Below, in pieces: positions 4,614-29,346 of a stretch of DNA of 32,947 nucleotides. The position numbers and the translations under genes were made by a program. The notes under the pieces were generated by a model, which saw only the letters and a list, made by a program, of their open reading frames with translations, had not been told where the DNA came from and made no database searches. Numbering within the stretch: the stretch's first letter is position 1; each line of letters starts with the position of its first letter. Origin of the DNA: a virus; IMG/VR virus record IMGVR_UViG_3300010885_023486, positions 1 to 32,947 of that record; one strand, written 5' to 3'.

Positions 4614-5941
4614 TAGAACGGCCTCCCGGTAGACAGGCTATACCCATCATAGCGAGTTTGCTGTTGCTCTTTCTTATTAAGTTTCGCAAAGTCGTCTGGG
4701 TGCATAGTTAGCGGCTTCCGGCCCATAGACGTTTGGTATCGGGCAAGCTGGTCATTGGCGATATCCTGGAACTGGTCAAGCTGCGAACCGATGTTCTTGG
4801 CCTGGCTCCCCCCGGTCAGGGTGCTCAGGGTATTATTGAAGCCCGACGTAAACGACGTTGGGTCGGCAAGGATTCCCTCCATCATCTCTGCATCATGTGC
4901 AGAAATCGCCCCAAGCTCCTCAAGCGTCTTCACCTTGAGAATAAGCTTTGTATGGGCGCTGGCGGTCAGAGCCTTACCCTCTGTGGGCCATATCTCAATG
5001 CCCGTTTTGTTCAAGTTGCTACGGTACTTCTCAATAGAATCGCGAAGGTCAGCAAACGACAGCAGCCTCTCCCTATCCTTCTGGGCAGCAGAGCCCTTCT
5101 CCGTATGCGCCACCGCCTGATCATGGCGATCATTTTGAGCATTACGGGCAGCGCTATCTGCGCTTTCAACACGTTCGTTTATATTCCCCCCTGCAAGAAC
5201 AAAGGCTTGTTGCTCGGGAGTAAGCCCAGTTGCGGCCAGTCGCTCACTAAGCTTTTTTCGCGCGTCTTCTGCGTCCTTATCTGCAAGGTTTCTAGTTCGG
5301 TCAATCGCTGCATTTGCCGCATCAGTGGCCTCATCAGCAATCACCTTTCGTCTCTTTGCAGCCAACTGAGCTGCCTCATCCGCAGTCGGAACATACATTT
5401 TCCCACCGCCCGGGACGTCGATCATCTGACTAAGCTTACGGGTTGAATCTGCCCGAAGGTCCGTATTCCCGGCGTCCTTGACCATCTCAAGGGCCTCCGG
5501 TGTGCGGAACGGATTTGCCCCTAGCGTGGGTCGTCCGCTAAGGCGAAGTGAGGCAGTGTCCTGTCCGGGAGGGCCACCAAGGAATGGGATGGCATTTCGT
5601 TCCTTTGTTGTCAGGCCCGGCCCACTAGGAACGGAGTCAAGGCCAAGCCCACCATAGCTTGCGTCACTCAGCTTGTATTCGTCTGGAGGTCCAGCGCTCG
5701 ACAGGGCAGCCCTGAGTGCATCCTCAGATTGATAGCCCATCGCCTCTCGCTCACGCCCAAGGGCGAATGCCTGCAACTGCCGCGCTGCCTCGCGGTCCTT
5801 TCGATCCTCATCTTCACGCTGCTTTAGTCGGGCGATTCGATCTGCCTCAATAGCCTCTGCACGTTGCTTCTGCTTGCTCTCTGCGTACCCACTTGCTCCA
5901 CCAGCAAGGGCAGCAAGGATGGCACCAAGTCCGTTTGGCAT
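4613..5941 (-). CDS. Ejection-type internal virion protein (442 aa)
   Basis: 442 residues. A short hydrophobic Gly/Ala stretch (about residues 4-20) is followed by a strongly charged helical region (about 22-65) rich in Glu, Arg, Lys and Gln, then mixed helical sequence with many Ala and Asp. No catalytic motif is seen. It lies between a 610-residue and a 1298-residue virion protein, the position of the internal or ejection proteins in podoviruses (P22 gp7/gp20/gp16 and T7 gp14/15/16 are functional parallels, not sequence matches). The ATG follows the previous stop after one nucleotide, and the stop overlaps the GTG of the next gene. Confidence 0.6.
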   Translation of the reverse strand: MPNGLGAILAALAGGASGYAESKQKQRAEAIEADRIARLKQREDEDRKDREAARQLQAFALGREREAMGYQSEDALRAALSSAGPPDEYKLSDASYGGLGLDSVPSGPGLTTKERNAIPFLGGPPGQDTASLRLSGRPTLGANPFRTPEALEMVKDAGNTDLRADSTRKLSQMIDVPGGGKMYVPTADEAAQLAAKRRKVIADEATDAANAAIDRTRNLADKDAEDARKKLSERLAATGLTPEQQAFVLAGGNINERVESADSAARNAQNDRHDQAVAHTEKGSAAQKDRERLLSFADLRDSIEKYRSNLNKTGIEIWPTEGKALTASAHTKLILKVKTLEELGAISAHDAEMMEGILADPTSFTSGFNNTLSTLTGGSQAKNIGSQLDQFQDIANDQLARYQTSMGRKPLTMHPDDFAKLNKKEQQQTRYDGYSLSTGRPF

Positions 5942-5942
5942 A

Positions 5943-7775: not shown

Positions 7776-8785
7776 TAGATGTGCCCCGCAGAGCCCAAGC
7801 CCTTCATGATGGAGCCGCCAAAGAGTGTGCTATCCCCACTACCCATGATGGCCTTCATGAGCTGCTCACGGACCGGAGACATTTCAGCGTCACGATTCTG
7901 CATAATCATCAGGAGGCGCTTCCGATCTTCCTCAGAAAGCTCCTGCTGACGATTTGCCCGTGCTTCCTGCCCTCGCTGGATTTCTGCATTCAGTTCATTC
8001 CGCCGCTTCTCAGCTTCCGTCTCAGCAGCCAGTCGGCGGTTGTAATAATCATTTTGGGTCTGGTTCTGCTGGTTGCTGTTGTAAGCGTCGTATCCCTTTC
8101 CAAAAATGCCTGCTGCAGTCTCAATATTTTTTGGAGTAAGCCAATCAAACGTTCCCATGGGACCACTCGGAGTAGAGGTTGAAACTGAACGAAGAACATC
8201 TGGGGCTGCTCGTGTTGCCATATTTTCGAGCGATAAAACGCCCGGCGTAGCGGTCGAACCCCCTAGAAGTCTTGCAGATGAGGGGGTGAGGGCCGCTGCC
8301 CCATTTGTGCTAGCCTTAGCAGCAGCTTGAGACACTGCGCTCATTGGACCGTTGTAGCCAAACATGCTAGAGGCAAGGCCTTGCCCACTGCTAGTGAGCA
8401 TGGCGTTATCAATGCCCGTCTTGGCAATGTTCCCAATGTTTGTTCCATGGCGAACCCCGGCTCCAGCCGCAGCACCAAGGCCGCCGAGCAGTACGCCACC
8501 AACCCCACCCGTCAGAATCCCTGCAATGGGCGCAACGTTCTTCAGCGCATTGCCCACAAAGTTGCGGTTCCGGTCCCAAATGTCGCCGGTCCCCCACTGC
8601 TGGTGGGCATTGTCTGCCGCCGTTCCCGTAGATTTTGCCAGTGCATCGGCTTCGTCATGGCTAAGCTTTTTGCCACCCTTATACCACCAGCCGTCAGAGC
8701 CAATCGTAGCCCCCATCGCCTTTGCTTGTGCAGCAGCACGAGGATCGCCCGTTTCGTAAGTACCACGATATGTGCCCTGTGGCAT
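7775..8785 (-). CDS. Ejection-type virion protein with Gly-rich hydrophobic segment (336 aa)
   Basis: 336 residues. The N-terminus contains W-W-Y-K-G-G-K and a small charged region. Residues about 82-112 form a long Gly/Ala/Val/Leu segment that could insert in or cross a membrane. The C-terminal third (about 220-320) is Asn/Gln/Glu/Arg-rich and likely coiled coil. A membrane-active segment next to helical sequence is typical of internal head proteins that form the ejection channel, which fits its place just before the 610-residue gene. It follows the 99-residue gene without a gap. No named family is recognised. Confidence 0.6.
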   Translation of the reverse strand: MPQGTYRGTYETGDPRAAAQAKAMGATIGSDGWWYKGGKKLSHDEADALAKSTGTAADNAHQQWGTGDIWDRNRNFVGNALKNVAPIAGILTGGVGGVLLGGLGAAAGAGVRHGTNIGNIAKTGIDNAMLTSSGQGLASSMFGYNGPMSAVSQAAAKASTNGAAALTPSSARLLGGSTATPGVLSLENMATRAAPDVLRSVSTSTPSGPMGTFDWLTPKNIETAAGIFGKGYDAYNSNQQNQTQNDYYNRRLAAETEAEKRRNELNAEIQRGQEARANRQQELSEEDRKRLLMIMQNRDAEMSPVREQLMKAIMGSGDSTLFGGSIMKGLGSAGHI

Positions 8786-9085
8786 TTAGTCCTCACTCCG
8801 AAAGATGATAAAGTCCAGCAGCGAACTTGCGGGCGCTGCTGTGCCAAAGGTGCACGTAAAGCTCGAGGTAGTACGGGCGGTCACGGCACGGGTGGTAAGC
8901 CACGAGGTCGTGATATGCACTCCATAGTTCGTGTCCGATTCCTTTCGGGCCAGTGGGATGACCGCAGTCACCGCCGTAACCGTCACGGGAATCTTGACCC
9001 CACATCCGCCTGACGTGGCATACCGGAACCGAACGCGCCGGACCTGTTCCTCCTCACGAGTATTCACTGCCATAGGCGCTGTCAT
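8786..9085 (-). CDS. Small beta-rich virion protein (99 aa)
   Basis: 99 residues, rich in Thr, Val, Ala and Ser with alternating hydrophobic patterns suggesting beta-strands. The ATG sits in a TGATG overlap with the upstream tail gene; a second Met at residue 5 (codon at 9073) is an alternative start. Its place between the nozzle-like protein and the ejection proteins suggests a minor structural component such as a tail or plug protein. Family unknown. Confidence 0.55.
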   Translation of the reverse strand: MTAPMAVNTREEEQVRRVRFRYATSGGCGVKIPVTVTAVTAVIPLARKESDTNYGVHITTSWLTTRAVTARTTSSFTCTFGTAAPASSLLDFIIFRSED

Positions 9086-10653
9086 CAGGTTCCCCCTCGG
9101 CGGCCCATGGCAAATGCTTGCACTTCGGCCCGTGAATACAGGGCGTCGGCTTCGCCTGAATCCACGATCGTCAAGTCAATCCACTCCCCACGGTCAGCCA
9201 ATGGGACACGAAAGACTGCTGCGTTGGTCACTGCAAGGCTCGTTGCATCGATGGCATAGCTACCGCTACCCGACTGGGTGACCCATTCGACAGACACCGT
9301 ATCAGTGCCACGAGGATCCATGAGGAGATAGCCCCACCGATAGGCCTTCTCGTTCATCGGGTCGCCAGCAAAGAATCGGTGTGGCTGGACACTCATGGTG
9401 AACGAGGTGCCGCCCGTATAGTTCACGGTTAGGTTGTCGAGGTATGCCCCGTCGGCATCACAGAGCGTGACCCACCCACTCGCATCGCCACGTAGGATCA
9501 GGAACCGACCCTCGTTGTCCTCAGACTCAAAGTGACAGGTAGTTGCTGGGGAGAGATAGCCAGCATCCCACGGACCCGACCAGGCATTGAGTCGGTAGTT
9601 GTAAACCATGATCCCAACATCCGGGACAAACCACCGGATCTCATGGTAGTTACGGGCATGAACCCCACGGACGCCAGCAACGGTATCCCCATCCCAGCCG
9701 CGCACAATACTATCGATCGGAGCGGAAATAGATTCGGGTGGGGTATGCTCACTCACCCGATAGAATCCATTGGGCCCAAGAAAATACACCTGCCCAGACA
9801 CTTCAACAATGGAGAAGGCATTGGTCGTACCGACTTCACTCGTAATGCCCGTCGCACCAGCAGCGATCGCAATGTCATCCTGAGTAAAGCCCGTCCAACG
9901 CGAGATGCCGCTGCGGTGGAAGATCATCAGGCTTGATCCACTGACCGCAAGGCCGGTGGTCACCTGATCGCCAAAGGTACGGATGATGGCTTCTCCACCA
10001 CCGCTCGCGCCAACCCCCAGTGTATCTCCGTCGTTCAGCTCAGAGTAGTACACACTCTGATTCGTGCCCGTCACCCCAAAGAGGCGCTGGTTATAGACGG
10101 CAATCTGCGTGACACTTGGGGTACTTGCCAGGTTCAGCTCGAGTGTCGTCCCATCCCATCGGTTGAGCGGCCCACCATCTGCGATATACATACACTCGGT
10201 ATCCGCAGGAGCGGTGTACAAAAAGCTGGCAAAGTCTGGGGTGCCCGTGGTGGCAAGGCCATTCCCCTGGGAAACGAATGGGGTGACGGTCGACTCCGAG
10301 AACAGCGTCAGGCTGTCCTCTGTCGTGAGTTCGTCTCCAGCACTAGTGGAAAAGCTAAACAGGGTCGACGGCGACGAGAATCCCGACGCATAGAGGTAGC
10401 CATTCTGGACTACCATAATCTTCGAGTTGGTCACCCGATACCAGGTGGTCCCATTCTGGATAGCCTGGCCGCCACCAAGGGCCGCCAATGTCAGCCGGAC
10501 AGTCCCCAGTCGTTTCCCAGCGCCACCAAACTCCGAGAGGCGCACATTCGTCGCGTCCCGGACCTGATTGGGCTGCATCTGTGACGGGTCAGCTGTCACG
10601 TTCAGGCCACCACCAAATGATGGCTGGGCGTCAGCCACGGTAGGACGGCCCAC
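9085..10653 (-). CDS. Tail nozzle/hub protein, podoviral gp10/gp12-like (522 aa)
   Basis: 522 residues from a GTG start immediately after the upstream TAA, with GGGAG about ten bases before it. The N-terminus has a pattern typical of podoviral nozzle and stabilisation proteins: a P-S-F-x-G-G-L opening, then a D-A-T-N-V stretch and G-x-G-K-R-L-G at about residues 32-50. The rest is beta-rich with many Gly, Ser, Thr and aromatic residues, consistent with a beta-propeller-like platform. In podoviruses this protein forms the distal tail tube below the adaptor and is essential for a closed, infectious particle. Length is close to the usual 450-600. Assignment is by pattern and position, not by search. 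Confidence 0.68.
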   Translation of the reverse strand: MGRPTVADAQPSFGGGLNVTADPSQMQPNQVRDATNVRLSEFGGAGKRLGTVRLTLAALGGGQAIQNGTTWYRVTNSKIMVVQNGYLYASGFSSPSTLFSFSTSAGDELTTEDSLTLFSESTVTPFVSQGNGLATTGTPDFASFLYTAPADTECMYIADGGPLNRWDGTTLELNLASTPSVTQIAVYNQRLFGVTGTNQSVYYSELNDGDTLGVGASGGGEAIIRTFGDQVTTGLAVSGSSLMIFHRSGISRWTGFTQDDIAIAAGATGITSEVGTTNAFSIVEVSGQVYFLGPNGFYRVSEHTPPESISAPIDSIVRGWDGDTVAGVRGVHARNYHEIRWFVPDVGIMVYNYRLNAWSGPWDAGYLSPATTCHFESEDNEGRFLILRGDASGWVTLCDADGAYLDNLTVNYTGGTSFTMSVQPHRFFAGDPMNEKAYRWGYLLMDPRGTDTVSVEWVTQSGSGSYAIDATSLAVTNAAVFRVPLADRGEWIDLTIVDSGEADALYSRAEVQAFAMGRRGGT

Positions 10654-11340
10654 TTAGGCTCCCGCCCATTCGTGGGCGTTGTCCGGATAGTCGAGCAGCG
10701 TCGGTGTGACCGTCTGTCGGCGGATATCGTCAAGGAGCAGCTTGCGGGTATCGCTGGCCAGCCCCTTCAGCATTGCCGCAGCTTCCGGCTCAGCCCCACC
10801 CTTCAGCAGCAGTGTAGCCGCGGCTTCATAGCAGGGCAGGAGATATGAGGCCGATGGGAAGTTGATCACACTCGTGCCGCTTGCAAGGTCCGAGAGCATG
10901 GTAGGCTTGTAGTTGACCGACACGGTGAGCGCCAAGCCCGACTGTACCGGCAGCACCTGAATCGCTTCAAGGCCAGCCCGATAATAGAGACGGGGCCGGA
11001 GATACACCGCCGTGGACGTCGTAGCCAACGGGACGTGGCGGAACTGTGTCTCCCCATACAGCTGCGCCCCATCATTCATCGACAGGATCCGGTAGAAGTT
11101 CTTCTGGGAATCGCCCGTCCCGGTACGCAACGCACTCGGATCGACGACTCCGTTTGCATCCGTGACCACCGACACGCTATTGAACGTGTAGTAGGGTGTC
11201 GCGTTCAGCAGGTTGGACCACTCGGTATCATAGGTATTGTCGAGCACGGACAACACCAAGGCGTCCGTCCACCGGGTAGAGCCTGCGGCATCCATAAACT
11301 GCCTGGTCGCTGCGATCAGTGCATCCCGCGTGACGCTCAT
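10654..11340 (-). CDS. Head-tail adaptor / tail tubular A-like protein (228 aa)
   Basis: 228 residues, helical at both ends (an N-terminal R-D-A-L-I-A-A-T-R-Q-F-M helix and a C-terminal helix with K-L-L-L-D-D-I-R-R) with a beta-rich middle. This arrangement and length suit podoviral adaptor proteins that link portal to nozzle. AGGGG lies about five bases before the ATG. It directly precedes the nozzle-like gene, the expected partner. I cannot name the family with certainty. Confidence 0.55.
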   Translation of the reverse strand: MSVTRDALIAATRQFMDAAGSTRWTDALVLSVLDNTYDTEWSNLLNATPYYTFNSVSVVTDANGVVDPSALRTGTGDSQKNFYRILSMNDGAQLYGETQFRHVPLATTSTAVYLRPRLYYRAGLEAIQVLPVQSGLALTVSVNYKPTMLSDLASGTSVINFPSASYLLPCYEAAATLLLKGGAEPEAAAMLKGLASDTRKLLLDDIRRQTVTPTLLDYPDNAHEWAGA

Positions 11341-12296: not shown

Positions 12297-13610
12297 TTAG
12301 ACAACGTGCGTGTAACGCGCCGTGTCGGTGTAGCCCGTGATCGAGCCATGCGAGTTCCGCTGCAGGCAGGCCAGATTGCCATACCAGCCATAGGAGGTCT
12401 CGAAGGCATCACGGCCCTGCGTCCAACGCCACGGGCCTGCGCCTTCAAACTCCACAAAGCCCCAGTCCTTCGCGTCCACCCACGACAGCGACGGAATGTG
12501 GATCAGGTAAATCGTACCAGCCGGCACATAGTAGTCCTGTACCAGCGGGATACCACAGACGCTGATAGCCTTGTAGCCACCCTTGATCGTCGTGGAGAAC
12601 TCTGCCGAATCAAACCGGCGCTGACCAACCATCGACTCGATCAGCTTCTTGCCAACACCAGGCGTGGTCATAAGCAGGAAGTCCTGCGGACGCAGCATTG
12701 CATCCTTACCAGAACGGCCAGAGATACGCTGGATCAGATCCCAGATGTCGCTTTCCGTCGGCTGGCTGGCGTCCGGCGTGTCCGTACCAGCAACCATACG
12801 AATCGCATCCCAGATACCATACGTCGCCTGCGAAATGCTATGCAGCGAGGCATAGCTGCCACCACGGTTCGTGATGTTGATCAGGCCATTCATGGCCGAG
12901 TTGAACGACGTGTCCGACGCCGTGGCCTTCACCAGCTTATCCGCCGCCGCCATACCCGTAATCGCCGTCGTCAACGTCAGCGTCGAGTTGTCACCAGACA
13001 CCGAGATTGCCGAGATGTTCGAGCGACCCAGCACGGCGTCCGACGAGGACGTATCCAGTACGGCGATGTAATCACCGACCGACAGGAGCAGCGAACCCTG
13101 ACCAGCCGACGCAACGCCGTACGGCGAGGTCACGACAATGACGGTCGTGGAGGTCACCGAGCCAACCAGTGCCACAATACCATCGGCCTTGTTATGGAGC
13201 GCCTGCTGCATCAGCAGGGTCGAGGCATCCTTGATTTCTTCCATCGTCTTCTTGGCGATGGTCTGGAACGCGGCGTCCTTCGACTGCGTACCAACAAATG
13301 CCAGGCCGTCAATCTGACGGGTGGTGTATGCACGAACGACACCGACATTGCCCTGCACTTCAGTCGCCGTCGTGTCAGGCGGGAAGTAGCCTGCCGAGGA
13401 GAACGTTGCACCGGACGGACGACCAACAACGACATCGAAAAACACATTGTTCCCGCCCCAACGCATGTTGCGCGGGCCACCGGCCTTACCCTTGTTCAGC
13501 TGGGCAAGCAGCGGCGTGACGAGGTTCTGCACCTTCTCCCGGAACTGCGAATACACATTCTTTAGCAGACCGGTAAGTTCGGTATCGGTAATAACTGTGG
13601 GTGCTGGCAT
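12297..13610 (-). CDS. Major capsid protein
   Basis: 437 residues, the usual size for an HK97-fold coat protein. The N-terminal region (about residues 5-45) is helical, then comes a G-G-N-N-V-F-F-D-V-V-V stretch of the type seen at the start of the E-loop. The centre has Gly/Ser/Thr-rich beta segments and the last third contains A-I-S-V-C-G-I-P-L-V and Y-L-I-H-I-P. It lies directly downstream of the scaffold and portal genes, the canonical order. About 13 bases separate a short AGGA-containing leader from the ATG. Codon choice appears strongly biased, as expected for the most abundant virion protein. The HK97 fold is inference; position and size make the coat assignment strong. Confidence 0.8.
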   Translation of the reverse strand: MPAPTVITDTELTGLLKNVYSQFREKVQNLVTPLLAQLNKGKAGGPRNMRWGGNNVFFDVVVGRPSGATFSSAGYFPPDTTATEVQGNVGVVRAYTTRQIDGLAFVGTQSKDAAFQTIAKKTMEEIKDASTLLMQQALHNKADGIVALVGSVTSTTVIVVTSPYGVASAGQGSLLLSVGDYIAVLDTSSSDAVLGRSNISAISVSGDNSTLTLTTAITGMAAADKLVKATASDTSFNSAMNGLINITNRGGSYASLHSISQATYGIWDAIRMVAGTDTPDASQPTESDIWDLIQRISGRSGKDAMLRPQDFLLMTTPGVGKKLIESMVGQRRFDSAEFSTTIKGGYKAISVCGIPLVQDYYVPAGTIYLIHIPSLSWVDAKDWGFVEFEGAGPWRWTQGRDAFETSYGWYGNLACLQRNSHGSITGYTDTARYTHVV

Positions 13611-14680: not shown

Positions 14681-16906
14681 TTACTGCGGCGTCACTGCTT
14701 CTAGCTGCCGTGCGGCCTGCTCAGCATCGGGGGTGCCAGCCAACGACTGAACCATCGTCGGCGCGACCCCAATGGGCGGGTTCGTACTGCCTAGAGGCAT
14801 TTGACTCGGTGAGAGCGCGGGAACACTTGCGGTGGCCCCCGCAGAACCTTGGCCTTCTCCGGCACCGCCAGTCGGCGCTCCGGGCATAGGCCCACCCTGT
14901 TTTTGTGCTGCTTGATTTGCCAACTGGATCCACCGCGCATTAGCGTTGGCGATCACTGTTGGGTCCAGATCATCCTGCAAGAGAATGTCCCGCTCGAGCA
15001 CATCCTGATGGATGGACTCATTGTCCTGCCACCGCATTTCGGGCACGGCCAACCCTTGACGGATGGCGTCCGTGACCCGCTTGGCCCGTGCTTCCTGGTC
15101 TTCGTCTGGGCTCGAGATATCCCGCGCCACAGCAAACTGCTGGCGGCGGCGGTACTCCTTGACGTCGATAATCCCTGCCTGCAGCCAGTTGTCCAACAGG
15201 TAGAGCCGGAAGGCCATCGGCATCGGCATCATGGTTGCCGCCTCAACCTTCACATTGAGTGCGCCGTCGAGGTCCTTCCCTGTCACAGCTCGGGCAAGGT
15301 CAGGACGACCGGCCCCTACTGCACCAAGCGCACGGGGCATGTCATATCCCCACGCCATCATCGCCAAGCAGACCTTAGCCCAGTCCGTATAGGCCTGAGC
15401 GAGTGCCTGAACCGGAGGAGCGAAGACCCGCTCCAGCTGCTCACGGCTTGCAATAATGGCTCGACCTGACTCACCGGTAATCTGGCCACGGCTCACCGAG
15501 TTGTAGCCAGAGGCATCCTCAAAAGCCTGCTTCTCCAGTGCAAGGGCTTCCTTGACGTCCGTCCCAACCGAGAATCCGCTGACCGGCTGGATAGAGTCGC
15601 TCATGGCACCCGCACCACGAACCTCAATCATCGAGGTGACGCCACCCAAGAACGTTTCGGTCGAGATGGTATTCGGACGGGTCAGGAATCGGCCACCGGC
15701 ATTGACCCGGATGTTCTCAATCCACTTGGACAACAGGGCGTTGATCCGCATCTGGTGATCAATCCACTGTTCCATCACCGGACGCGGGAAATAGCTCGGA
15801 TCGCTCGACCCATCCCGTACCGGGACCACGGGGATTGAGCCAAACAGCAACTCCGTCGGCCCAAAGACCGCCGTGCTGCCGACAATCACGATCTGCAGCC
15901 CACCGGGGAGGATATCAGGCTGTGGTGCGACGTAGAGCGTAAAGCGTTCGGTTGTTTCCTGGTCACGGAGCCGGTCCCCTTCACCAACCACCGTCTGCGA
16001 CAGCACCCACGCGCCCATTCCGGACTCACCAGTCGTTGCCGTCTGGTGTCCCTGGGCGAGTTCCTGATTTGAGGCCTGCAATCCCGTGATACCGTAGCGG
16101 TAGGCCGCCTCAGACGAAGGAATCACCTCTCGAATCAGCACCCACGATGGAGCCCGGGTGGCTGTTGCATCTGGCGACACCCGCACCTGCTCCACGCGGA
16201 GGGTCTGAATGTTGATATCACCCAGCGGAGCCTGTTCGCCAGCCTTATTCCCCAGGCGATCGTCCCACGGACCGCGATCTGCGTCCCAATAGGTGTGCCA
16301 GAAGGCCACGCCGTCCGTCTGCGCCCAGTAGGACGCCTCGCGGGACATGCGATCCATCTGCAGCTGGTCATATTGATACTCACACGCCAGCTGCTGGGCC
16401 TGTGCCTTCCGCTTATCCTCGGGATCCGAGGTCATCGGCTGGATAGCAAAGCCAGGTCGCTGGTCCATCATCACCTGCAAGCGCTGGTCGAGCGCCTTGT
16501 TGATCAAGTTGTACACAATCCGCGCCGATTCCCGGGGGCGGAGGGGCTCACGCCACGGGCCAAGCCCGTTCGCACTCACCCACTGCTGCCCACCACGGAA
16601 CAACCGGTTCCGTTCCACCAAGTGCAGGTGCATCGAGACTGCACCACGGCGACTGCCCCACAGACTCCGGACCCAATCTGCCCATGCACTGTCTTCAGGC
16701 TGGACATCTTCCCCAAACGTCAGGGGGCACTGGTCTCCCAGCAAGGCTTTGAGCAACGCGGTGCGCTGCTCCTCCTCTGACCGCCCATCATCCTGCGGTG
16801 GGTTGGGCATGGTCTGGTCATTCGCCGTCGGCTGTGGAGCCGCCCCACCAGCAAGGGCTTGGTCTACCATCTGCTGCATCGCCGCTTCGTCAAATGGTGC
16901 GGTCAC
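14681..16906 (-). CDS. Portal protein (podoviral type, 741 aa)
   Basis: 741 residues from a GTG start in a GTGA overlap with the upstream gene. The size fits large P22-type portals (about 725). Residues about 115-230 read as the portal core: R-I-V-Y-N-L-I-N-K, an M-M-D-Q-R-P-G-F stretch, and D-G-V-A-F-W-H-T-Y-W-D, a pattern common in this family. The C-terminal ~150 residues are Pro/Gly/Gln-rich. The portal forms the dodecameric DNA entry ring, binds the terminase and nucleates procapsid assembly. The following scaffold and coat genes support the call. Confidence 0.78.
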   Translation of the reverse strand: MTAPFDEAAMQQMVDQALAGGAAPQPTANDQTMPNPPQDDGRSEEEQRTALLKALLGDQCPLTFGEDVQPEDSAWADWVRSLWGSRRGAVSMHLHLVERNRLFRGGQQWVSANGLGPWREPLRPRESARIVYNLINKALDQRLQVMMDQRPGFAIQPMTSDPEDKRKAQAQQLACEYQYDQLQMDRMSREASYWAQTDGVAFWHTYWDADRGPWDDRLGNKAGEQAPLGDINIQTLRVEQVRVSPDATATRAPSWVLIREVIPSSEAAYRYGITGLQASNQELAQGHQTATTGESGMGAWVLSQTVVGEGDRLRDQETTERFTLYVAPQPDILPGGLQIVIVGSTAVFGPTELLFGSIPVVPVRDGSSDPSYFPRPVMEQWIDHQMRINALLSKWIENIRVNAGGRFLTRPNTISTETFLGGVTSMIEVRGAGAMSDSIQPVSGFSVGTDVKEALALEKQAFEDASGYNSVSRGQITGESGRAIIASREQLERVFAPPVQALAQAYTDWAKVCLAMMAWGYDMPRALGAVGAGRPDLARAVTGKDLDGALNVKVEAATMMPMPMAFRLYLLDNWLQAGIIDVKEYRRRQQFAVARDISSPDEDQEARAKRVTDAIRQGLAVPEMRWQDNESIHQDVLERDILLQDDLDPTVIANANARWIQLANQAAQKQGGPMPGAPTGGAGEGQGSAGATASVPALSPSQMPLGSTNPPIGVAPTMVQSLAGTPDAEQAARQLEAVTPQ

Positions 16907-18581: not shown

Positions 18582-19892
18582 TTAGGCGACCGTAAAGGTT
18601 TTTGCTGTTGTTGCAACAACTAGTTTTTCGGAAGACGAAAAAGGACTAGCTCCGGCTTCGCCACCAAAGATTAGGCCAGATGACGAGGAAGCTCCAGCCG
18701 CGCCAAAATACCAGCGAGTTAATGCTGTTGAGCCACCACTTGACCACGTGCTTCCATTGTAGACTTCTGTAGATGTATTGCCTGCTCCCATTATAGCATT
18801 TGCATCTGTTGTGGTTCCAAGTGCTCTCGTCTGAGTTCGACTAGACGATGGCCCAGTCACACTTGACCACGTGCTTCCATTGTAGACTTGATTTGTGGTG
18901 TTAACAATAGACAATGCTGCTGACGATGTTCCGCAAGAAAGATTGTCTTGTACGGCTGTACTTACAGCGCCCGTCGAAGACCATGTACTCCCATTGTACT
19001 TCTCAACTCGGGCTGTTATTACAAAACTGGCATTACGCCCCGCAATACAAAGTGCCGCTGTGCTTGAGCCAGCGCCACCAGAATAGTCGCTACCGGTGGC
19101 CATGCTCCCAGTCAATGTCCATGTTGAGCCATCAAACAATCTGCAATCTGTAACGCCAGCATAAGATACCGATCCACTGAAAGCAAGGACCGTGTTAGAT
19201 GCTGCGCCAGTTGCATAGTTTGCAAGAATATTTGTTGGATACACTGTTGTACTTGACCATGTGCTGCCGTTGTATGCGTCACACACGTTAAGGTAAGCAC
19301 CGCTATAGCCACCCACGCTAATCGCAGAACTCGCTGATCCCGCGCCAGCATTTAGACGACGAGCTGCAGTCAAACTGCCCGTAGATGACCATGTGGCCAC
19401 ACCTTGCGCACACTTGAACGTGTCGCTGGTCGAGTTGTACCACACATCGCCAGCAACCAGTGGACTTGGGTCCGTCGCCACGGTACGGAACTTGGTCGCA
19501 TTACCACTAATCCCTGTAAGCGATGCCCCACTCCCAGAGAACAACGTGGCGTTCACGGTACCAGTCACATCGAGCTTCTGTGTTGGCACAGCGGTTGCAA
19601 TACCGACCTTATCCAGTCCTGCATCGACAAAGAACAGGGTCGCGGATGTCGTACCAGCAATACGGGTATCGCTGTCTGCTAGTGCCGTGTTGATAATCAA
19701 CGACGAGCCAGAGCCAACGATTGCGGAAGCAGTTGTCGCGCCAGTCAAGGCGCGGGAATAGGTCGCGGCCTGTGTGACCGTCGCCTTCTGGTCTTGCAGT
19801 GCACCAGCGCCGATGTCCGTGACGACAATGGTGAGGTCGGCAGCATCAGCGGTGGTAGCCGCTGGCAGGGCGCTAATCTTTGTGGTAGCCAT
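18582..19892 (-). CDS. Second tail-fibre paralogue with kelch-like beta-propeller (436 aa)
   Basis: 436 residues. Residues 1-160 are the module shared with its neighbours (I-S-A-L-P-A-A-T start, D-A-G-L-D-K-V-G-I-A-T, W-Y-N-S-T at 151-155). Residues ~165-425 hold about six repeats ending in Y-N-G-S-T-W or F-D-G-S-T-W, each followed by S-S/T-G and Gly-rich strands, as in kelch-type propellers. The last residues K-T-F-T-V-A match the ends of the paralogues. It probably forms a host-receptor-binding tip. It starts three bases after the previous stop with no clear ribosome-binding sequence, so coupling is likely. The propeller DNA looks less GC-rich than the shared module and holds a perfect 30-bp duplication. 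Confidence 0.7.
   Translation of the reverse strand: MATTKISALPAATTADAADLTIVVTDIGAGALQDQKATVTQAATYSRALTGATTASAIVGSGSSLIINTALADSDTRIAGTTSATLFFVDAGLDKVGIATAVPTQKLDVTGTVNATLFSGSGASLTGISGNATKFRTVATDPSPLVAGDVWYNSTSDTFKCAQGVATWSSTGSLTAARRLNAGAGSASSAISVGGYSGAYLNVCDAYNGSTWSSTTVYPTNILANYATGAASNTVLAFSGSVSYAGVTDCRLFDGSTWTLTGSMATGSDYSGGAGSSTAALCIAGRNASFVITARVEKYNGSTWSSTGAVSTAVQDNLSCGTSSAALSIVNTTNQVYNGSTWSSVTGPSSSRTQTRALGTTTDANAIMGAGNTSTEVYNGSTWSSGGSTALTRWYFGAAGASSSSGLIFGGEAGASPFSSSEKLVVATTAKTFTVA
18737..18889 (-). repeat. Perfect 30-bp direct repeat between propeller blades
   Basis: Positions 18737-18766 and 18860-18889 are identical over 30 bp, 123 bp apart (41 codons, about one blade). Each begins CACTTGACCACG and ends TTGTAGACTT, and encodes the N-G-S-T-W segment. 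Identity at the DNA level suggests a recent blade duplication or gene conversion. Confidence 0.85.
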
Positions 19893-19895
19893 GGG

Positions 19896-21179
19896 TCAGG
19901 TTACCGTAAAGGTCTTAGAGGAAGACAAAGGGCCAGTCGTGAGCACCTCGGTGCTCGTACTGCCAGAATAAGCACCCCATACCATTGCGGACGATGTAGA
20001 TCCGGCAGACCCATGATGGAAACGCCCAGTATTTAGACTGGTGATTGTGGTCCAAGCCGACCCATCAAAAGTCGCACAGCCACTACTGGCCCCTCCGCAG
20101 GTAAGGGCTGCCGTCTGAACACCAACCTGACCGGATGCTTGAATATCAAAAGGGGCTGCCGTCGAAGAAGCCCATGTGCTGCCATCGAACTTTTCGCAAT
20201 CTCGAAGAAAGTTCTGCCCACCAACGCTCAGTCCTGCCGTAGAAGTGCCACAACCTCTATTATTTCCCGCGTTATTTATCATTGAGCCAGAGGTAGACCA
20301 TGTACTCCCATCAAACTTATAAGTAGTCGTGACACTACCACCAGCCCCGTACGCCGCCGCGCTTGTCCCACCCGATGCGCAGTTACTCATTCCGCCTGGG
20401 AGTGATCCCGTAGCAGACCATGTACTCCCATTGAAGAGTTCGGCGTCGGTGCCGCCGCCAGTGCTACCCGCAACAAGGGCTGACGTTGGAGTTCCGCATG
20501 ACGTAGGAAGCTCATGGTTCGTGGGAGTACTTGTAGTCGCAGTCCACGTACTGCCGTTGAACGTAAAACAGTTGTTTGTCCCAGATCCGCTAGCGGAGAG
20601 TAGGGCTGAGGGCGTCCCGATCTTTGAAGCTGAGCCCCAGATGGACTGGGGATACGCCGTGCTTGCGGTCCATACATTTGACGACGCTGTTGTATAGCCC
20701 CTGAACGTATTAGCCGTCGAGTTGTACCAGCAGTTTGCATCGACAGGACTCGCGGGATTTCCCGCCACCGTCAGGAACGCTGCCGTCGAAGTCGCTGGCA
20801 AGCTCGTCAATGCCGAGCCGTCACCACTAAACGTCGTTGCGGTCACTGTACCAACCACCTGCAATGCCACGGTTGGCGTTGCCGTGTTGATGCCGACGCG
20901 GTTATTGCCAGCGTCCGTAAACAGCAGGTTGACCATCCCCGTACTCGACACCACCACATCCTTGTCGGCCTGTGCGGTGTTGATGGTCAACGCCCCACCA
21001 GAGCCATCCAGGGTAGTCGCAGTGAGTGACCCACCCGCGCTCCGAATGTACGCATCGAGCTGCGTACCGGTCGCCTTCTGCGTCACGGGTGTTCCCGCCG
21101 GATCGTTCACAATCGGGAACAACGTCGCAGCCACAACACTCGTTGCCGCTGGTAGATCAGGAATCGTTTTTGTGGCCAT
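19896..21179 (-). CDS. First tail-fibre paralogue with kelch-like beta-propeller (427 aa)
   Basis: 427 residues. The shared N-terminal module covers residues 1-160, with I-P-D-L-P-A-A-T, P-A-G-T-P-V-T-Q-K-A-T, N-R-V-G-I-N-T-A-T-P-T, and W-Y-N-S-T at 151-155. About six blade repeats follow, five of them with F-N-G-S-T-W or F-D-G-S-T/A-W, ending in K-T-F-T-V-T. Together with the next two genes it makes a three-member array of related fibres. The likely role is host recognition through the propeller, with the N-terminal module holding the fibre to the virion. Its ATG overlaps the stop of a 50-residue ORF upstream (TAATG). Sequence between propellers of the two long paralogues is more divergent than the shared module. 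Confidence 0.72.
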   Translation of the reverse strand: MATKTIPDLPAATSVVAATLFPIVNDPAGTPVTQKATGTQLDAYIRSAGGSLTATTLDGSGGALTINTAQADKDVVVSSTGMVNLLFTDAGNNRVGINTATPTVALQVVGTVTATTFSGDGSALTSLPATSTAAFLTVAGNPASPVDANCWYNSTANTFRGYTTASSNVWTASTAYPQSIWGSASKIGTPSALLSASGSGTNNCFTFNGSTWTATTSTPTNHELPTSCGTPTSALVAGSTGGGTDAELFNGSTWSATGSLPGGMSNCASGGTSAAAYGAGGSVTTTYKFDGSTWSTSGSMINNAGNNRGCGTSTAGLSVGGQNFLRDCEKFDGSTWASSTAAPFDIQASGQVGVQTAALTCGGASSGCATFDGSAWTTITSLNTGRFHHGSAGSTSSAMVWGAYSGSTSTEVLTTGPLSSSKTFTVT

Positions 21180-21972: not shown

Positions 21973-23298
21973 TTACCACGAGACGGGCAGCTGCGCTTCA
22001 GGTGCCCCAAAAAAATGTAGCGGGTTCACTTGACTCGCGTCAGCCCCCGCAAAGACCAACGCAGTTGGGTCATCACCTACTGGCCCGTCCGTCAGTAACT
22101 CCACCGGCACCGCCCCTTGTACGCGGTCCCAGCCATACAGGGCCAAGGCCAGGGCCATCACGCCATCGTCATGCAAACTGGGCGGTGCTTCGTATCGCAC
22201 CCCCGTATTGGTAAAATGAAACTCAAAACTTTCCAGCTCGCCAATCAGCCAGCCGTCGGGGATGGTCAACTCCCCACCCTGAAACGCGGCGATCAGCCGC
22301 TGCATCAGCCGGAGCTTGGATGGCTGCGTAAAAATGTGGGGGGTTACCGTCACGCCTAACACCTGCAGGTCAGCCACAATCGCATCGCCCACGCCAGTCG
22401 CATCGGCTACCAGGGGGACTTCGCCCACCTGCATCCGGATTCGCTCTTTGGTTTCGGCCCACGGTAACTGGAAGCGGTCAAGCGAACAGACGCGGCGGTG
22501 GCTATCCAAGCCAACCAACACCGTGAAGTCCAGCGACCGCGCCAAGTCCACGCCATAGACCACGGGCTTCCGTCCACTCATTTGCCCAATCGCGGCACGG
22601 ACCTTATCCACCCCAAAGGGGTTCGCGCCATCATCCGCGGGAATCCCCTCAAACTCTTGAGCAAAGACCAGCGGCGGCAGCTCCTGCTTGGCCGCCTCAA
22701 TCTCACTGGCGGGGATAAATGGATTCTCTCCGGTCGCCGCACGGAAGCTCTGCCAGTCTGGGCTACTGCCGTCCATGCCGCGCTGGAACATCTGCACGAA
22801 CGCATGACGACGACCCTTCGGCGTTCCCATGATCAGGGCTCGGCCCCCCAAATCCACCAATGTCGGGCGAATGGCGGCCTGCCAGACCGCGGTCAAGTCC
22901 TTGGCAATCCCCGCCTCATCCAGCACAACCAAGGCGTACTTCCGGCCACGGGCTGGGTCCGGCGTATCCAGCGTCCAGACCTCAATCACCCCACCGGTCA
23001 GCAGCTCGAGCCGCTTGTCCTGCTCCGAGACTCGGGCCGTGATCGGTCCCAAGCGCTCGAGGATTTCCCGCCACGCTTCTAGTGCGAGCTTGTAGGACGG
23101 AGAGAACCACCCGACGGGCTGCCCGGCAATCGCGGCATCCAACGCCAGTCGCATCCCCAACGCGGTCTTCCCAAACCGCCGTCCACACATGACCACCCGA
23201 AACCGCGCCTCATGGTCCGCAATCGCGCGTTGACCCGGATGGAGCTTTGCCAACGTCACCGTGACCGTTTCCGGTCGCTGCTTTGTATGACCGCGCAT
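21973..23298 (-). CDS. terL: Terminase large subunit
   Basis: 441 residues with both motor and nuclease domains. ATPase: Walker A G-R-R-F-G-K-T at 39-45, Walker B L-V-V-L-D-E at 123-128 with the catalytic Glu128, and coupling motif G-T-P-K-G at 158-162. RNase H-like nuclease: Asp251 in Y-G-V-D-L-A, Asp299 in V-A-D-A-T-G, and Asp377/378 in H-D-D-G. All key acidic residues are present, so the enzyme should pump DNA into the procapsid and cut it to genome length, docked on the portal. The ATG follows a 12-mer, GGTTATATTAGG, also found before the small terminase gene. The short length fits the family's compact members. Confidence 0.93.
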   Translation of the reverse strand: MRGHTKQRPETVTVTLAKLHPGQRAIADHEARFRVVMCGRRFGKTALGMRLALDAAIAGQPVGWFSPSYKLALEAWREILERLGPITARVSEQDKRLELLTGGVIEVWTLDTPDPARGRKYALVVLDEAGIAKDLTAVWQAAIRPTLVDLGGRALIMGTPKGRRHAFVQMFQRGMDGSSPDWQSFRAATGENPFIPASEIEAAKQELPPLVFAQEFEGIPADDGANPFGVDKVRAAIGQMSGRKPVVYGVDLARSLDFTVLVGLDSHRRVCSLDRFQLPWAETKERIRMQVGEVPLVADATGVGDAIVADLQVLGVTVTPHIFTQPSKLRLMQRLIAAFQGGELTIPDGWLIGELESFEFHFTNTGVRYEAPPSLHDDGVMALALALYGWDRVQGAVPVELLTDGPVGDDPTALVFAGADASQVNPLHFFGAPEAQLPVSW

Positions 23299-23348: not shown

Positions 23349-23744
23349 TTACAGGTACACGAGGATGACACTTGGAAAAGGGGCTCCTGCTTTTGCCTCT
23401 CCAAATCTGAGCCGTCCTTTGACAAAGCGGATTGCATCTGCGTCAAGGGCGTAGTCGTGCCACCATCGAGTATCGGTTCTTGCTGGCAAGAGGAACACGG
23501 CAAGCTGCGCTGTGCGAGCTTTTGCTAACCACGCCCCAATCCCCCTGCCGTATGGCGGGTTGCAAAACACCCGCTGGCCTGACCAGTCCAGTGTGAGGCC
23601 ATCCACAACAAAATCGCCGTCTTTCTCGGTCAGAGGGCACGGGTCAAGCGTAAAGCCAAACTCAGCATCTAGCGCAGCGTACAGGTCGGTCGGCGTAGCG
23701 TGACTTCCAGACTGAGCAGAGAACAAAGTACGGCTCAGTGTCAT
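23349..23744 (-). CDS. Phage DNA N6-adenine methyltransferase (Dam type)
   Basis: 131 residues. It has T-P-T-D-L-Y near the start, T-L-D-P-C-P at 32-37, C-N-P-P-Y at 61-65 (the catalytic motif of N6-adenine methyltransferases) and G-R-L-R-F at 110-114, in the order seen in the phage Dam family (PF05869). These enzymes transfer a methyl group from S-adenosylmethionine to adenine, often in GATC, and can protect phage DNA from restriction or mark it for packaging. It is slightly shorter than most members but keeps all main motifs. It lies between the two terminase genes and starts in an ATGA overlap with the small subunit gene, so it is made together with it. Target sequence unknown. Confidence 0.85.
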   Translation of the reverse strand: MTLSRTLFSAQSGSHATPTDLYAALDAEFGFTLDPCPLTEKDGDFVVDGLTLDWSGQRVFCNPPYGRGIGAWLAKARTAQLAVFLLPARTDTRWWHDYALDADAIRFVKGRLRFGEAKAGAPFPSVILVYL

Positions 23745-25908: not shown

Positions 25909-26355
25909 ATGTCACACATCCTGATTGGCGAACGCATCGTAAACGTCTGCGTAAACAGCGACTGGAACAGGCTCGTGCTTGAGCTTGCAACCGGCCAACT
26001 CATCATGGCCCGTCCCTACGGCTTCGCCACAATCGAAGCCTTTGTCAACGCACCAGCGCTGCTCGACGTCGTGCAAAGCGTAGAAGAGGTCTACCACAAA
26101 CGCAGCCCACTGGCATACGGCGATCTGCCACGGCAATACCACGAATGCATAATCACAACGAACCAAGGCACCTGCACAATCGACGTGGGCAGGCACGAGC
26201 TCGAGTGGGAAACCTCCGAACACCCAGCTTCAGACCTCGTGCGCCTAACCAAGTCGTACAACGAGCGGCATCAAGAAATCGACGGCCAAATGTATTTCTG
26301 CAAATGGATAGACATTGTCCAGGACAACAGGCCCATGTCCAAGCGCGTCAAGTAG
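25909..26355 (+). CDS. DUF7448-like protein, divergent copy (148 aa)
   Basis: 148 residues. AAGGAG precedes the ATG in a leader nearly identical to that of the next two genes. It starts M-S-H-I-L-I-G-E-R-I-V, as its downstream neighbour does, and aligns with it along most of its length: a short domain with S-V-E-E-V and a C-terminal T-N-Q-G-T-C-T-I-D segment. That plan resembles the small phage DUF7448 family. This copy lacks the S-N-G-Y-Y motif of its neighbour and so has probably diverged in function. No enzyme motif is seen. Confidence 0.65.
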   Translation: MSHILIGERIVNVCVNSDWNRLVLELATGQLIMARPYGFATIEAFVNAPALLDVVQSVEEVYHKRSPLAYGDLPRQYHECIITTNQGTCTIDVGRHELEWETSEHPASDLVRLTKSYNERHQEIDGQMYFCKWIDIVQDNRPMSKRVK

Positions 26356-26383
26356 CCCAACCATCCCACCTCAAGGAGTTCCC

Positions 26384-26824
26384 ATGTCACACATTCTGAT
26401 CGGCAAAAGAATCGTAAAAGTGTCACTCGCTGCAGACCGCGAAAAGCTGCTGTTCGACTTTGCAGAGGGCCTGTCAATAGTGGCCAAGGTAGAAAACATG
26501 TGCAGCGAGACCTGGATTGCGAGCCTAGACAATCCCGACGCACTACTCGGCACAGTGCATAGCGTAGAGGACCTCGTACTCAGGGCCCAAGTAGAAGTCG
26601 AACCCCATGACTATCGCACATGGTACGGATTCAAGATCAGAACAAACAAGGGCACATGCGTCATCGACTACCGCAACAGCTCAAACGGCTACTACGGCGG
26701 CGGCCTCGACTGGCCCGAAAACGAATCAGAGGTCGAAGAGGATGCACAAGACCGAGCACTCTACGAACTGCAAGAGCCCGATTACAACGAATGGAAACAA
26801 GTAGCCCCCTACCCACAAGCCTAA
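26384..26824 (+). CDS. DUF7448-like protein (146 aa)
   Basis: The ATG at 26384 is chosen because AAGGAG lies five bases before it and the product then begins M-S-H-I-L-I-G like its paralogue. 146 residues, with C-S-E-T-W-I-A-S-L-D and L-L-G-T-V-H-S-V-E-D, then I-R-T-N-K-G-T-C-V-I-D and S-S-N-G-Y-Y-G-G. This order (Cys/Glu patch, short helix, T.KG.c.I, SNGYY) is what I recall for DUF7448 phage proteins. The C-terminus is acidic. Function is unknown; tandem placement next to an amidoligase operon may mean it is a partner or substrate, which is speculation. Confidence 0.68.
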   Translation: MSHILIGKRIVKVSLAADREKLLFDFAEGLSIVAKVENMCSETWIASLDNPDALLGTVHSVEDLVLRAQVEVEPHDYRTWYGFKIRTNKGTCVIDYRNSSNGYYGGGLDWPENESEVEEDAQDRALYELQEPDYNEWKQVAPYPQA

Positions 26825-26864: not shown

Positions 26865-27227
26865 GTGGCACGTATCACCCGCATGAATCTCGATGATGCC
26901 TTGATGCAAATCAACATGCTCAATGGCACCGCCAACACCACGCAGTACCGACGACACCGCGACAACCTCATCCCCAACGAAGGAGCGTACATGCTGACCA
27001 ATGCATTTGGGGGGCTGGCCCTGGTACAGATGATGGAACAGGGCACCATCCGAGATGTGTTCCCAGACCTGCCCAAGACCCGCGAACTGTACGATCAGAT
27101 GGTGGCGTATGCCAAAGGCATGAAGGCCCAGCAGCTACGTATCGCCCTCGCACAGACCTGGGTCAACCCACTCCGAGATGCCGAAGATGTCCCTCAACCA
27201 CTAACCGAAGAGGTTGTCCATGCCTGA
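26865..27227 (+). CDS. Unknown helical protein before the amidoligase gene (120 aa)
   Basis: 120 residues from a GTG; the leader CAAGGAGTTCCC is identical to that of the gene before. Mostly predicted helix (M-N-L-D-D-A-L-M-Q-I, then L-T-N-A-F-G-G-L-A-L-V-Q-M-M, and a helical C-terminus). The last eight bases overlap the amidoligase start, so the two products are made together. No family recognised; it could be the substrate or a partner of the amidoligase. Confidence 0.62.
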   Translation: MARITRMNLDDALMQINMLNGTANTTQYRRHRDNLIPNEGAYMLTNAFGGLALVQMMEQGTIRDVFPDLPKTRELYDQMVAYAKGMKAQQLRIALAQTWVNPLRDAEDVPQPLTEEVVHA

Positions 27228-28389
27228 GATACTCGATCACCCATTACCAGGGGCTGAGACAGAACTGATCGACCCGTGCGGCAGCTGCTTCCAAGAGACA
27301 GAGAACGTCTACACACTCGAAGGCCGAAGGCCATGCGTCGACTGCGTACATCAATGCGCATACTGCCCGTCTTTCGTCGTAGGATATCTGCCCGACAGCT
27401 GGAGAGAAACAGGCCCACGCAACGTACCAACGTGCAGTCACTGCAGCGAGGACTGGAACTGTTGCGAAGACTGCGGGATCAGTATCCACATCTGTAATAC
27501 GTTTTACAGTGACGATGAGCCATACTGCGACGACTGCGCACCATCGGATGACGACGAAGAGGACCCACCCGACTCGGTGATCCGTCGGTACCACGAATCT
27601 CAAGGAATCTTTACAAGCCTGACCTCACCCTGGACACGTGCCCACCGTCGATACATTGGCGTCGAGCTTGAAGTTGAGCAAGTCAACGGTAACCGTGAAA
27701 CATCTGCCTGCCGGATAATCGACGCAGTAAATAGCCAAGCGAAGCTCATCCTCACCGACCAGGCACTATACCCGGGACACCCGCACAGCCCACTCCTCGT
27801 GAGCATGGAGAACGACGGCAGCCTCAACAATGGGTTCGAGATCATCACGGCACCACTCGGACTCGATGACCAGCGCAACCTATGGGCAACGATACTTGCC
27901 TCATCCAATGTCGCGGGACTACGATCACACAACACCACAACCTGCGGGTTGCATGTGCATATCACCCGCGACGGGCTCAGCAAACTCCAGATCGCCAAGG
28001 TCGTAGCCTTCGTCAACAGCGCAACCAACTACGCCTTCATGAAGCGATTGTCCAGACGGTATGGCACACACTACTGCAAGGCCAAGAGCAAACCGCTTTG
28101 CACCGGAGCGAGTAACCTTGACTCCGATCGATATGAGATGGTCAACCTATGCAACAGGCGTACCATCGAGTTTCGGATTTTCCGGGGAACACTCAAGCTC
28201 CAGAGTCTCTTGGCTTGCATCGAGTTTGCCGCCGCGCTCGTGTCCTACTGTGCACCCGCATCAGGGTACGCTATGGATATCAGCGCCGTCACGTTCCGGC
28301 GGTTCATCAACACCCCGCGCATGAGAGCAGACACGAAACATCTACGCGGCTATCTGGCCAGCGTAATCCCCGCAACAGAAACGGAGTAA
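27220..28389 (+). CDS. Amidoligase with N-terminal Cys-rich (zinc-ribbon) region
   Basis: 389 residues from the ATG at 27220; AGAGG lies six bases before it. A TTG two codons earlier is less likely. Residues 20-106 contain Cys pairs (C20/C23, C39/C42, C46/C49, C72/C75, C82/C85, C103/C106), probably several zinc ribbons. The catalytic part resembles the putative amidoligase family (PF12224; glutamine synthetase/GCS-like fold): G-V-E-L-E-V-E at 147-153, E-N-D-G-S-L at 197-202, E-I-I-T-A-P-L at 207-213, C-G-L-H-V-H-I at 242-248, and T-I-E-F-R-I-F-R-G-T-L at 315-325. Such enzymes use ATP to join a carboxylate to an amine. A glutaminase gene follows three bases later, so ammonia may be the amine donor, or the pair may build a peptide or amide tag. 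Substrate unknown. Confidence 0.82.
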   Translation: MPEILDHPLPGAETELIDPCGSCFQETENVYTLEGRRPCVDCVHQCAYCPSFVVGYLPDSWRETGPRNVPTCSHCSEDWNCCEDCGISIHICNTFYSDDEPYCDDCAPSDDDEEDPPDSVIRRYHESQGIFTSLTSPWTRAHRRYIGVELEVEQVNGNRETSACRIIDAVNSQAKLILTDQALYPGHPHSPLLVSMENDGSLNNGFEIITAPLGLDDQRNLWATILASSNVAGLRSHNTTTCGLHVHITRDGLSKLQIAKVVAFVNSATNYAFMKRLSRRYGTHYCKAKSKPLCTGASNLDSDRYEMVNLCNRRTIEFRIFRGTLKLQSLLACIEFAAALVSYCAPASGYAMDISAVTFRRFINTPRMRADTKHLRGYLASVIPATETE

Positions 28390-28392
28390 CCC

Positions 28393-29346
28393 ATGTGCCT
28401 CTTGATTCAGCAGCCAGCTGGCTGCACCTTCTCTAAAGTTGAGCTCAAGGATTTTATCCGACGCAACCCTGATGGATACGGATATGCCAGGGCCGAACGG
28501 GGACGCATCATCTGGGGCAAGATGGTAGCCGACGCCGACACCATCATCGCAGACTACCACCAACACATGGCCGGCAAGTCTGGGATGATTCACTTTCGGA
28601 TGGCCACCCACGGAGAGACCGACGAAGCCAACGCCCATCCATTCGAGGTGACCCCGGAGATTGTCCTGGCACACAACGGCATCCTCAGCAGTGGCAATCC
28701 GTTCAGCGAGGACGAGAGCGACACGGCACACTTTGTCAAGTACATTGTGCGACCCATTGCCCTCAGCTCACCCAACCTACTGTTCAGCCCAGAATGGGGA
28801 GAGATGATCGGCAACCTGATCGGAAAAAGCAACAAGCTAACCATCCAACATGCAGACGGACGATGCGCCATCATCAACAGCAGCTGTGGTGTTCTGCATA
28901 AAGGTGCATGGATGAGCAATACTTATGCATGGTCGAACGCAGCCAATGCCCCCCTGAACTACACCCGAAGGGCCGATGCCTACGACCCACGCGATACGGA
29001 CTGGATGTACGAAGACCATCGCTCCGCCAGAGCTGGCCTGCCCACCGTATACGAAAGCCAACTCGAGGAGTGCGCCAAGTACTTCGAGAGTGGAGGCCGG
29101 AACGGAATCGCGCAATGGGTGAAGGCGAATCCACAAGAAGCCGCCGATACACTCGTTGCGTTATACGACATCGACGAGGACTACGCGGCGGAACTCGTAA
29201 CCGGAAGCGAGAACATGGTAGTCGACCACCTCGAAGAATCGCTACGGAACGAAGGATTGCTGGTCGATCTCAACCAGGAGGAGGATGCATACGTCGATGA
29301 AGACCAACTCACGCTCGGCAACTCCGAAACATTGTACACCCACTGA
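28393..29346 (+). CDS. Class II glutamine amidotransferase (GlmS/PurF type)
   Basis: 317 residues; ACGGAG lies six bases before the ATG and the amidoligase stop is three bases upstream. Cys2 follows the start Met, as needed for an N-terminal nucleophile after Met removal. Glutaminase motifs are in order: D-G-Y-G at 27-30, H-F-R-M-A-T-H-G at 67-74, N-A-H-P-F at 80-84, L-A-H-N-G-I at 92-97, and S-D-T at 109-111. The family releases ammonia from glutamine and passes it to a partner. The last ~130 residues are acidic and unlike known transferase domains, so the protein probably acts as a stand-alone glutaminase for the amidoligase. All catalytic residues seem intact. Confidence 0.87.
   Translation: MCLLIQQPAGCTFSKVELKDFIRRNPDGYGYARAERGRIIWGKMVADADTIIADYHQHMAGKSGMIHFRMATHGETDEANAHPFEVTPEIVLAHNGILSSGNPFSEDESDTAHFVKYIVRPIALSSPNLLFSPEWGEMIGNLIGKSNKLTIQHADGRCAIINSSCGVLHKGAWMSNTYAWSNAANAPLNYTRRADAYDPRDTDWMYEDHRSARAGLPTVYESQLEECAKYFESGGRNGIAQWVKANPQEAADTLVALYDIDEDYAAELVTGSENMVVDHLEESLRNEGLLVDLNQEEDAYVDEDQLTLGNSETLYTH

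Follow-up and report, generated by a model that had tools for sequence, protein, structure and literature searches.

Amidoligase genes accompanied by a glutamine amidotransferase gene have been described in several groups of phages. The two occur together in the OM43 phages MEP401/402 and in more than 30 related marine viral genomes (PMC10580990), and amidoligase and glutaminase genes have been reported in LUZ24-like phages (PMC3890496), phage tf (PMC3517423), Pseudoalteromonas podoviruses (PMC5498523), and a Planctomycetes phage, for which the growth effect described is that of the phage and not of the genes (PMC10945688). A peptidoglycan-modification cassette has been described for phiEco32, LUZ24, phiRIO-1, and PSA-HP1 (PMC5498523; PMC3890496). 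In the portions of this literature available to us, the functions proposed for the pair are in the cell wall, in secondary metabolism, and in nitrogen metabolism, and none of these portions names an identified product. PMC10580990 cites Iyer et al. (2009) for phiEco32, with a cell-wall modification that prevents superinfection, and Mageeney et al. (2012) for Marvin, with secondary metabolites; in the same portions, the 'peptidoglycan cassette' explanation is handed on from report to report.

Here we analyzed the whole of IMG/VR record IMGVR_UViG_3300010885_023486, a stretch of 32,947 bases (the window) that encodes such a pair. The packaging and structural genes are on the minus strand, and a plus-strand block contains small genes, the amidoligase/glutaminase pair, a DUF1376/primosomal-type protein, and others (Table 1); the pair sits within an early/replication gene block. 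The initial annotation had placed an amidoligase gene three bases upstream of a glutaminase gene and had the amidoligase overlap a preceding short gene by 8 bp, and this arrangement was confirmed on the open reading frame list and by comparison with one close relative, locus L013. The overlap spans 27220-27227 and is also 8 bp long in L013 (5845-5852), and the spacer between amidoligase and glutaminase is 28390-28392. All three open reading frames are under purifying selection, with dN/dS values of about 0.23 for the 120-aa protein, 0.23 for the amidoligase, and 0.20 for the glutaminase in an NG86 comparison of the record with L013. For the amidoligase, the first start on the open reading frame list, TTG at 27214, was rejected for the ATG at 27220 (MPEIL...); since the L013 protein likewise begins with ATG and the residues MP, this ATG is most likely the true start.

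Table 1. Position and strand of the principal features of the window
Feature	Position	Strand	Remarks
Major head protein	12297-13610	-	
Portal	14681-16906	-	
Terminase	21973-23298	-	
120-aa protein	26865-27227	+	GTG start; from the open reading frame list
Amidoligase, PF12224	27220-28389	+	389 aa from the ATG at 27220; predicted glutamine synthetase/GCS-like fold
Four-cysteine module, probable zinc site	27355-27444	+	N-terminal to the amidoligase catalytic domain
Catalytic amidoligase domain	27646-28362	+	about residues 143-381; high-confidence part of the model and conserved alignment block; boundaries approximate
Class II (Ntn) glutamine amidotransferase	28393-29346	+	317 aa; Cys2 nucleophile at 28396-28398
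C-terminal helical extension of the glutaminase	29044-29250	+	about residues 218-286; high-confidence predicted helices
DUF1376/primosomal-type protein	at 29349	+	in the plus-strand block

The first protein matched PF12224 (Amidoligase_2) with 28.9 bits against a curated cut-off of 22, and the same model matched all 46 aligned relatives with E-values up to 0.01. Residues E151, D199-G200-S201, E207, H245, H247, T315, E317, and R319 are invariant among these 46 sequences. We modeled the protein with AlphaFold from an alignment of 43 sequences taken only from the record and from IMG/VR loci, and compared the model with the PDB by Foldseek. The best matches were glutamine synthetases, gamma-glutamylmethylamide synthetase (GmaS), Dop, and PafA; glutamate-cysteine ligase also appeared, at a lower rank. 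TM-scores to these glutamine synthetase-fold proteins were low, about 0.25-0.35, although the hits agreed with one another, and membership in the amidoligase fold is therefore judged from this agreement together with the Pfam match. A search of PDB sequences with the amidoligase profile returned nothing useful, its one match (E = 0.13) being to a UHRF1 fragment in the cysteine region. Thus, the structure search is in line with the amidoligase fold that the initial annotation had proposed, and the assignment of the first protein as an Amidoligase_2 protein with a predicted glutamine synthetase/GCS-like fold is supported.

The second protein begins with ATG-TGC (Met-Cys; MCLLIQQ...), with a GGAG just upstream. 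It scored slightly below the cut-offs of the GATase_4/6 models PF13230 (21.4 bits, cut-off 23) and PF13522 (21.3 bits, cut-off 27), and PF13230 matched 37 of 40 of its relatives with E-values up to 0.01. A profile of the family matched E. coli GlmS at 2e-9 and also PurF, though not EgtC, and the R..THG, N.HP, and HNG motifs aligned with those of GlmS; with an alternative alignment of the family, GlmS gave no match at 1e-8. M1, C2, R69, T72, H82, H94-N95-G96, and D110 are invariant in the 40 relatives. An AlphaFold model, again made from an alignment restricted to the record and IMG/VR loci, found its best fold matches in the glutaminase domain of GlmS and in EgtC (4zfj, 4zfk, 4zfl). The assignment of the second protein as a class II glutamine amidotransferase of predicted Ntn fold is thus supported. 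Its C-terminal helical extension is recognizable in the consensus of viral relatives and is a candidate docking region. Altogether, fold and conserved residues uphold the earlier designation of the two products as an amidoligase and a GlmS-type glutaminase with intact catalytic residues, and the active-site residues are kept in the homologues, being invariant in 46 amidoligase and 40 glutaminase relatives.

A scan of IMG/VR yielded at least 575 confirmed amidoligase-encoding stretches, which shows how common such amidoligases are among phages. We compared the best 80 of these at least 575 viral loci, plus L013 and the record itself; the loci were picked by similarity to the record's amidoligase and describe one branch rather than every amidoligase, and they hold near-duplicates (68 of 89 amidoligases are left at 80% identity). 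A glutaminase gene lay downstream on the same strand in 77 of the 79 viral loci with readable downstream DNA, with a median gap of 21 nt, and only L090 and L094 carried an amidoligase without it. One of the 77, L091, has its glutaminase between two amidoligases (5431-6900, 6990-8045, and 8640-11120). Among bacterial relatives, mostly from Ruminococcus and its kin, a glutaminase was present in 73 of 80 loci, and a resolvase, relaxase, or integrase gene was nearby in 67 of 80. The survey of gene neighborhoods that the initial annotation had suggested has thus borne out the pairing in viruses and bacteria alike. Moreover, when the search was reversed and started from the glutaminase, an amidoligase was found within about 4 kb in all six of the separate phage lineages inspected. 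Adjacency of the two genes is therefore far beyond chance.

The two proteins have also diverged in step. Pairwise distances among amidoligases correlated with those among glutaminases (r = 0.85, 64 loci). Over 23 loci this correlation was 0.94, compared with 0.75 and 0.79 for the amidoligase and the glutaminase, respectively, with TerL, and the partial correlation given TerL was 0.86, as expected for interacting subunits. Clustering of the viral neighborhoods revealed no third gene that was always present, the next commonest being the terminase (33 loci), so that the pair seems self-sufficient. Together, the fold, the conserved residues, and the near-obligate pairing lend support to the earlier proposal that the class II glutaminase would supply ammonia to an amide-forming ligase.

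The gene upstream of the pair stands apart from this pattern. It has an AAGGAG Shine-Dalgarno-like site 8 nt upstream of its GTG, and L013 encodes a 68% identical homologue in the same place. No further homologue turned up when IMG/VR was scanned or among the amidoligase loci of viruses, and the protein had no Pfam, NCBIfam, or PADLOC match. The 120-aa gene is real and belongs to the same operon as the pair, outside its core. We rejected it as a conserved partner, the role it had been given earlier, because only this one close relative has a homologue. In bacteria, 50 of the 80 loci (L096-L175) have a DUF960-type gene upstream of the amidoligase with its cysteine module (for example at 5679-5963 in L151). 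DUF960, amidoligase, and glutaminase there make up a three-gene unit, and the loci also carry resolvase, relaxase, or integrase genes; in several Ruminococcus genomes more than one copy is present.

The nearest described pairs are those of podovirus MW202733 (Manatee Spring), the Methylophilales phages MEP401/402, and mycobacteriophage Marvin (gp105/gp106). Like the record, they have adjacent amidoligase and glutaminase genes, in that order and on one strand, an N-terminal CxxC in the amidoligase, and no GGACT cyclotransferase; identity of the record to the nearest of them is 37% for the amidoligase and 46% for the glutaminase. They differ in their upstream genes, and the MEP401/402 amidoligase has a longer N-terminus. 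The Ruminococcus mobile-element loci likewise encode a cysteine-module amidoligase followed by a class II glutaminase, but have DUF960 upstream in place of the 120-aa protein and a more distant glutaminase (family-profile E-values of 1e-12 to 1e-4). The record's pair is therefore of an already described kind, found in phiEco32-, LUZ24-, Marvin-, and OM43-type phages, and the suggestion in the initial annotation that it could be a new system was overstated.

Like the record, the phiEco32/LUZ24-type cassette has a PF12224 amidoligase in the early region, together with a class II glutaminase. This cassette is reportedly described by Iyer (2009) and Hardies (2013). Its layout is shown by StenR_269 and Rhizobium I3_11, in which the distance from the amidoligase start to the catalytic ExE motif is 28-36 residues and the amidoligase sits among genes for ATP-grasp, cyclotransferase, and GS-like or additional glutaminase proteins. 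In contrast, amidoligases of the record's branch carry an N-terminal cysteine module, which is missing from these two cassette-type amidoligases, and whereas the cassette adds a cyclotransferase, an ATP-grasp protein, and further ligases, the record's pair has neither cyclotransferase nor ATP-grasp. A GGCT/GGACT cyclotransferase was absent from the record and from 50 of 51 viral records of the branch, many of which are fragments, while GGACT was found in both cassette-phage controls. No ATP-grasp protein was detected in the record or in the flanks of its relatives by phmmer with two cassette ATP-grasp queries. The COOH-NH2 ligase model PF14395 matched 1 of the 51 viral records and neither of the two cassette-phage controls; the matching record, that of L086 (G045, 12437-13108), may represent a stage between the minimal pair and the complete cassette. 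In terms of gene content, the record's branch is a stand-alone two-gene form with a cysteine-module amidoligase and without the cassette companions. Since cyclotransferase and ATP-grasp were not found, the pair seems to work without the other cassette enzymes. This two-gene form, common to phages and to Ruminococcus mobile elements of gut bacteria, is a minimal unit for expression and assay.

The module that marks this branch consists of C46-x2-C49 and C72-x2-C75, ahead of the catalytic domain. The four cysteines are kept in 41, 44, 42, and 44 of 46 relatives, respectively, and at least two CxxC motifs are present in the amidoligases of 79 of 80 bacterial relatives. CxxC motifs also occur in the amidoligases of Marvin, MEP401/402, and an Acinetobacter phage, and were not seen in those of Christensenellales, Clostridioides, and Microcoleus. 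LIM, double zinc-ribbon, or zinc-ribbon models match a few of the relatives, and the module probably binds zinc. Cysteine-rich LIM- or ribbon-like modules are common protein binders, which points weakly to a protein target as the leading guess.

From these observations we propose, with about even confidence, that the pair is a two-subunit glutamine- and ATP-dependent amide synthetase whose probable zinc module would present the substrate, most plausibly a protein. The class II glutaminase would use its Cys2 nucleophile to hydrolyze glutamine to glutamate and ammonia, the amidoligase would phosphorylate a carboxylate with ATP to an acyl-phosphate, as glutamine synthetase does, and the ammonia would attack this acyl-phosphate on the amidoligase to give a carboxamide. 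The four-cysteine module, probably zinc-bound, would present the substrate to the catalytic domain; a protein side chain or C-terminus is the most plausible substrate, a peptidoglycan precursor less so. The phage would benefit by having a host or phage component modified early in infection. The proposal draws on predicted folds, intact residues, near-obligate pairing, and co-evolution, and on this basis we infer the transfer of ammonia, the binding of zinc, the kind of substrate, and what the phage gains. As a rule, a class II glutaminase domain is fused to the synthase that it serves, and among the enzymes of this class that stand alone is the hydrolase EgtC; this, the two loci without a glutaminase (L090 and L094), and the low TM-scores count against the proposal.

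The main rival takes EgtA/EgtC of ergothioneine synthesis as its model, a GCS-fold ligase with a free-standing class II Ntn enzyme. The amidoligase would then attach an amino acid, glutamate or a different one, to an amine of a small molecule or protein, and the Ntn enzyme, rather than feeding ammonia, would be an amidohydrolase that takes off or trims the gamma-glutamyl group. EgtC is indeed among the best fold matches of the glutaminase, the record's glutaminase is a separate polypeptide, and the amidoligase folds near gamma-glutamylmethylamide synthetase and glutamate-cysteine ligase, both of which make gamma-glutamyl bonds. However, the sequence matches of the glutaminase family are to GlmS and PurF and not to EgtC, and EgtA/EgtC are part of a longer pathway. 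A step between attaching and undoing is normally needed, yet the viral loci have no third conserved enzyme, and cyclotransferase is missing from nearly all of the viral records. We therefore regard such a scheme as possible but unlikely.

Rather unlikely, too, is an action on the cell wall, in which the pair would amidate or lengthen the peptide of a peptidoglycan precursor in the cytoplasm, so that the surface is altered and superinfection impeded. For related pairs, this is what the available portions of the literature propose (PMC10580990 and PMC5498523, citing Iyer 2009), and precursors are made in the cytoplasm, the presumed site of both proteins. Furthermore, a ligase and a glutaminase are known to act as a pair on peptidoglycan in MurT/GatD, where a separate glutaminase subunit likewise serves the amidation of a carboxylate (PMC3267633). 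The folds of MurT/GatD, a Mur ligase and a class I glutaminase, are nevertheless unrelated to those of the record's pair (PMC3267633 and general knowledge). Moreover, the proposal was built on the larger cassette, whose cyclotransferase and ATP-grasp were not found with the minimal form; this form is shared by elements of mycobacterial, Gram-negative, and Ruminococcus hosts, whose walls differ; and it is not obvious what the four-cysteine module would do in an enzyme acting on wall precursors. Were the target in the cell wall after all, a proposal dating from 2009 would finally be tested.

Amide chemistry on bases is known from phages, and the pair is located within the early/replication block, but a role in DNA or nucleotide hypermodification, with an amide-linked group placed on a modified base, is highly improbable, as the record proteins scanned included no thymidylate-synthase-like or queuosine-type protein and no nucleotide kinase, and no such partner is conserved beside the pair in the viral loci.

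Returning to the two-subunit amide synthetase, we suggest, tentatively and as an unlikely extension, that the stand-alone cysteine-module pair gives phages and bacterial mobile elements a protein-modification system of a distinct type, in which one specific host protein would be amidated or aminoacylated to the benefit of takeover or counter-defence and not to change the cell wall. A protein target, if true, would represent a new class of phage protein modification. The anti-defence or takeover role raised in the initial annotation found no direct support: PADLOC gave no match for six proteins of the region, and no recognizable defence neighbor was present.

Several further features of the window were observed outside the pair. 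On the plus strand, 26315-26824 encodes a clear DUF7448 protein (1.4e-13), and the open reading frame just upstream (25909-26355) may encode a divergent paralogue, as both have MSHILIG.RIV near the start. On the minus strand, the adjacent proteins at 18582-19892 and 19896-21179 both match phrog_27227, of unknown function, which suggests a tandem duplication. Also on this strand, a 131-aa DNA methyltransferase-like protein (23349-23744) is encoded between the terminase small- and large-subunit genes, and a 1298-aa protein (717-4613) carries an endolysin-like stretch toward its C-terminus (residues 1183-1291).
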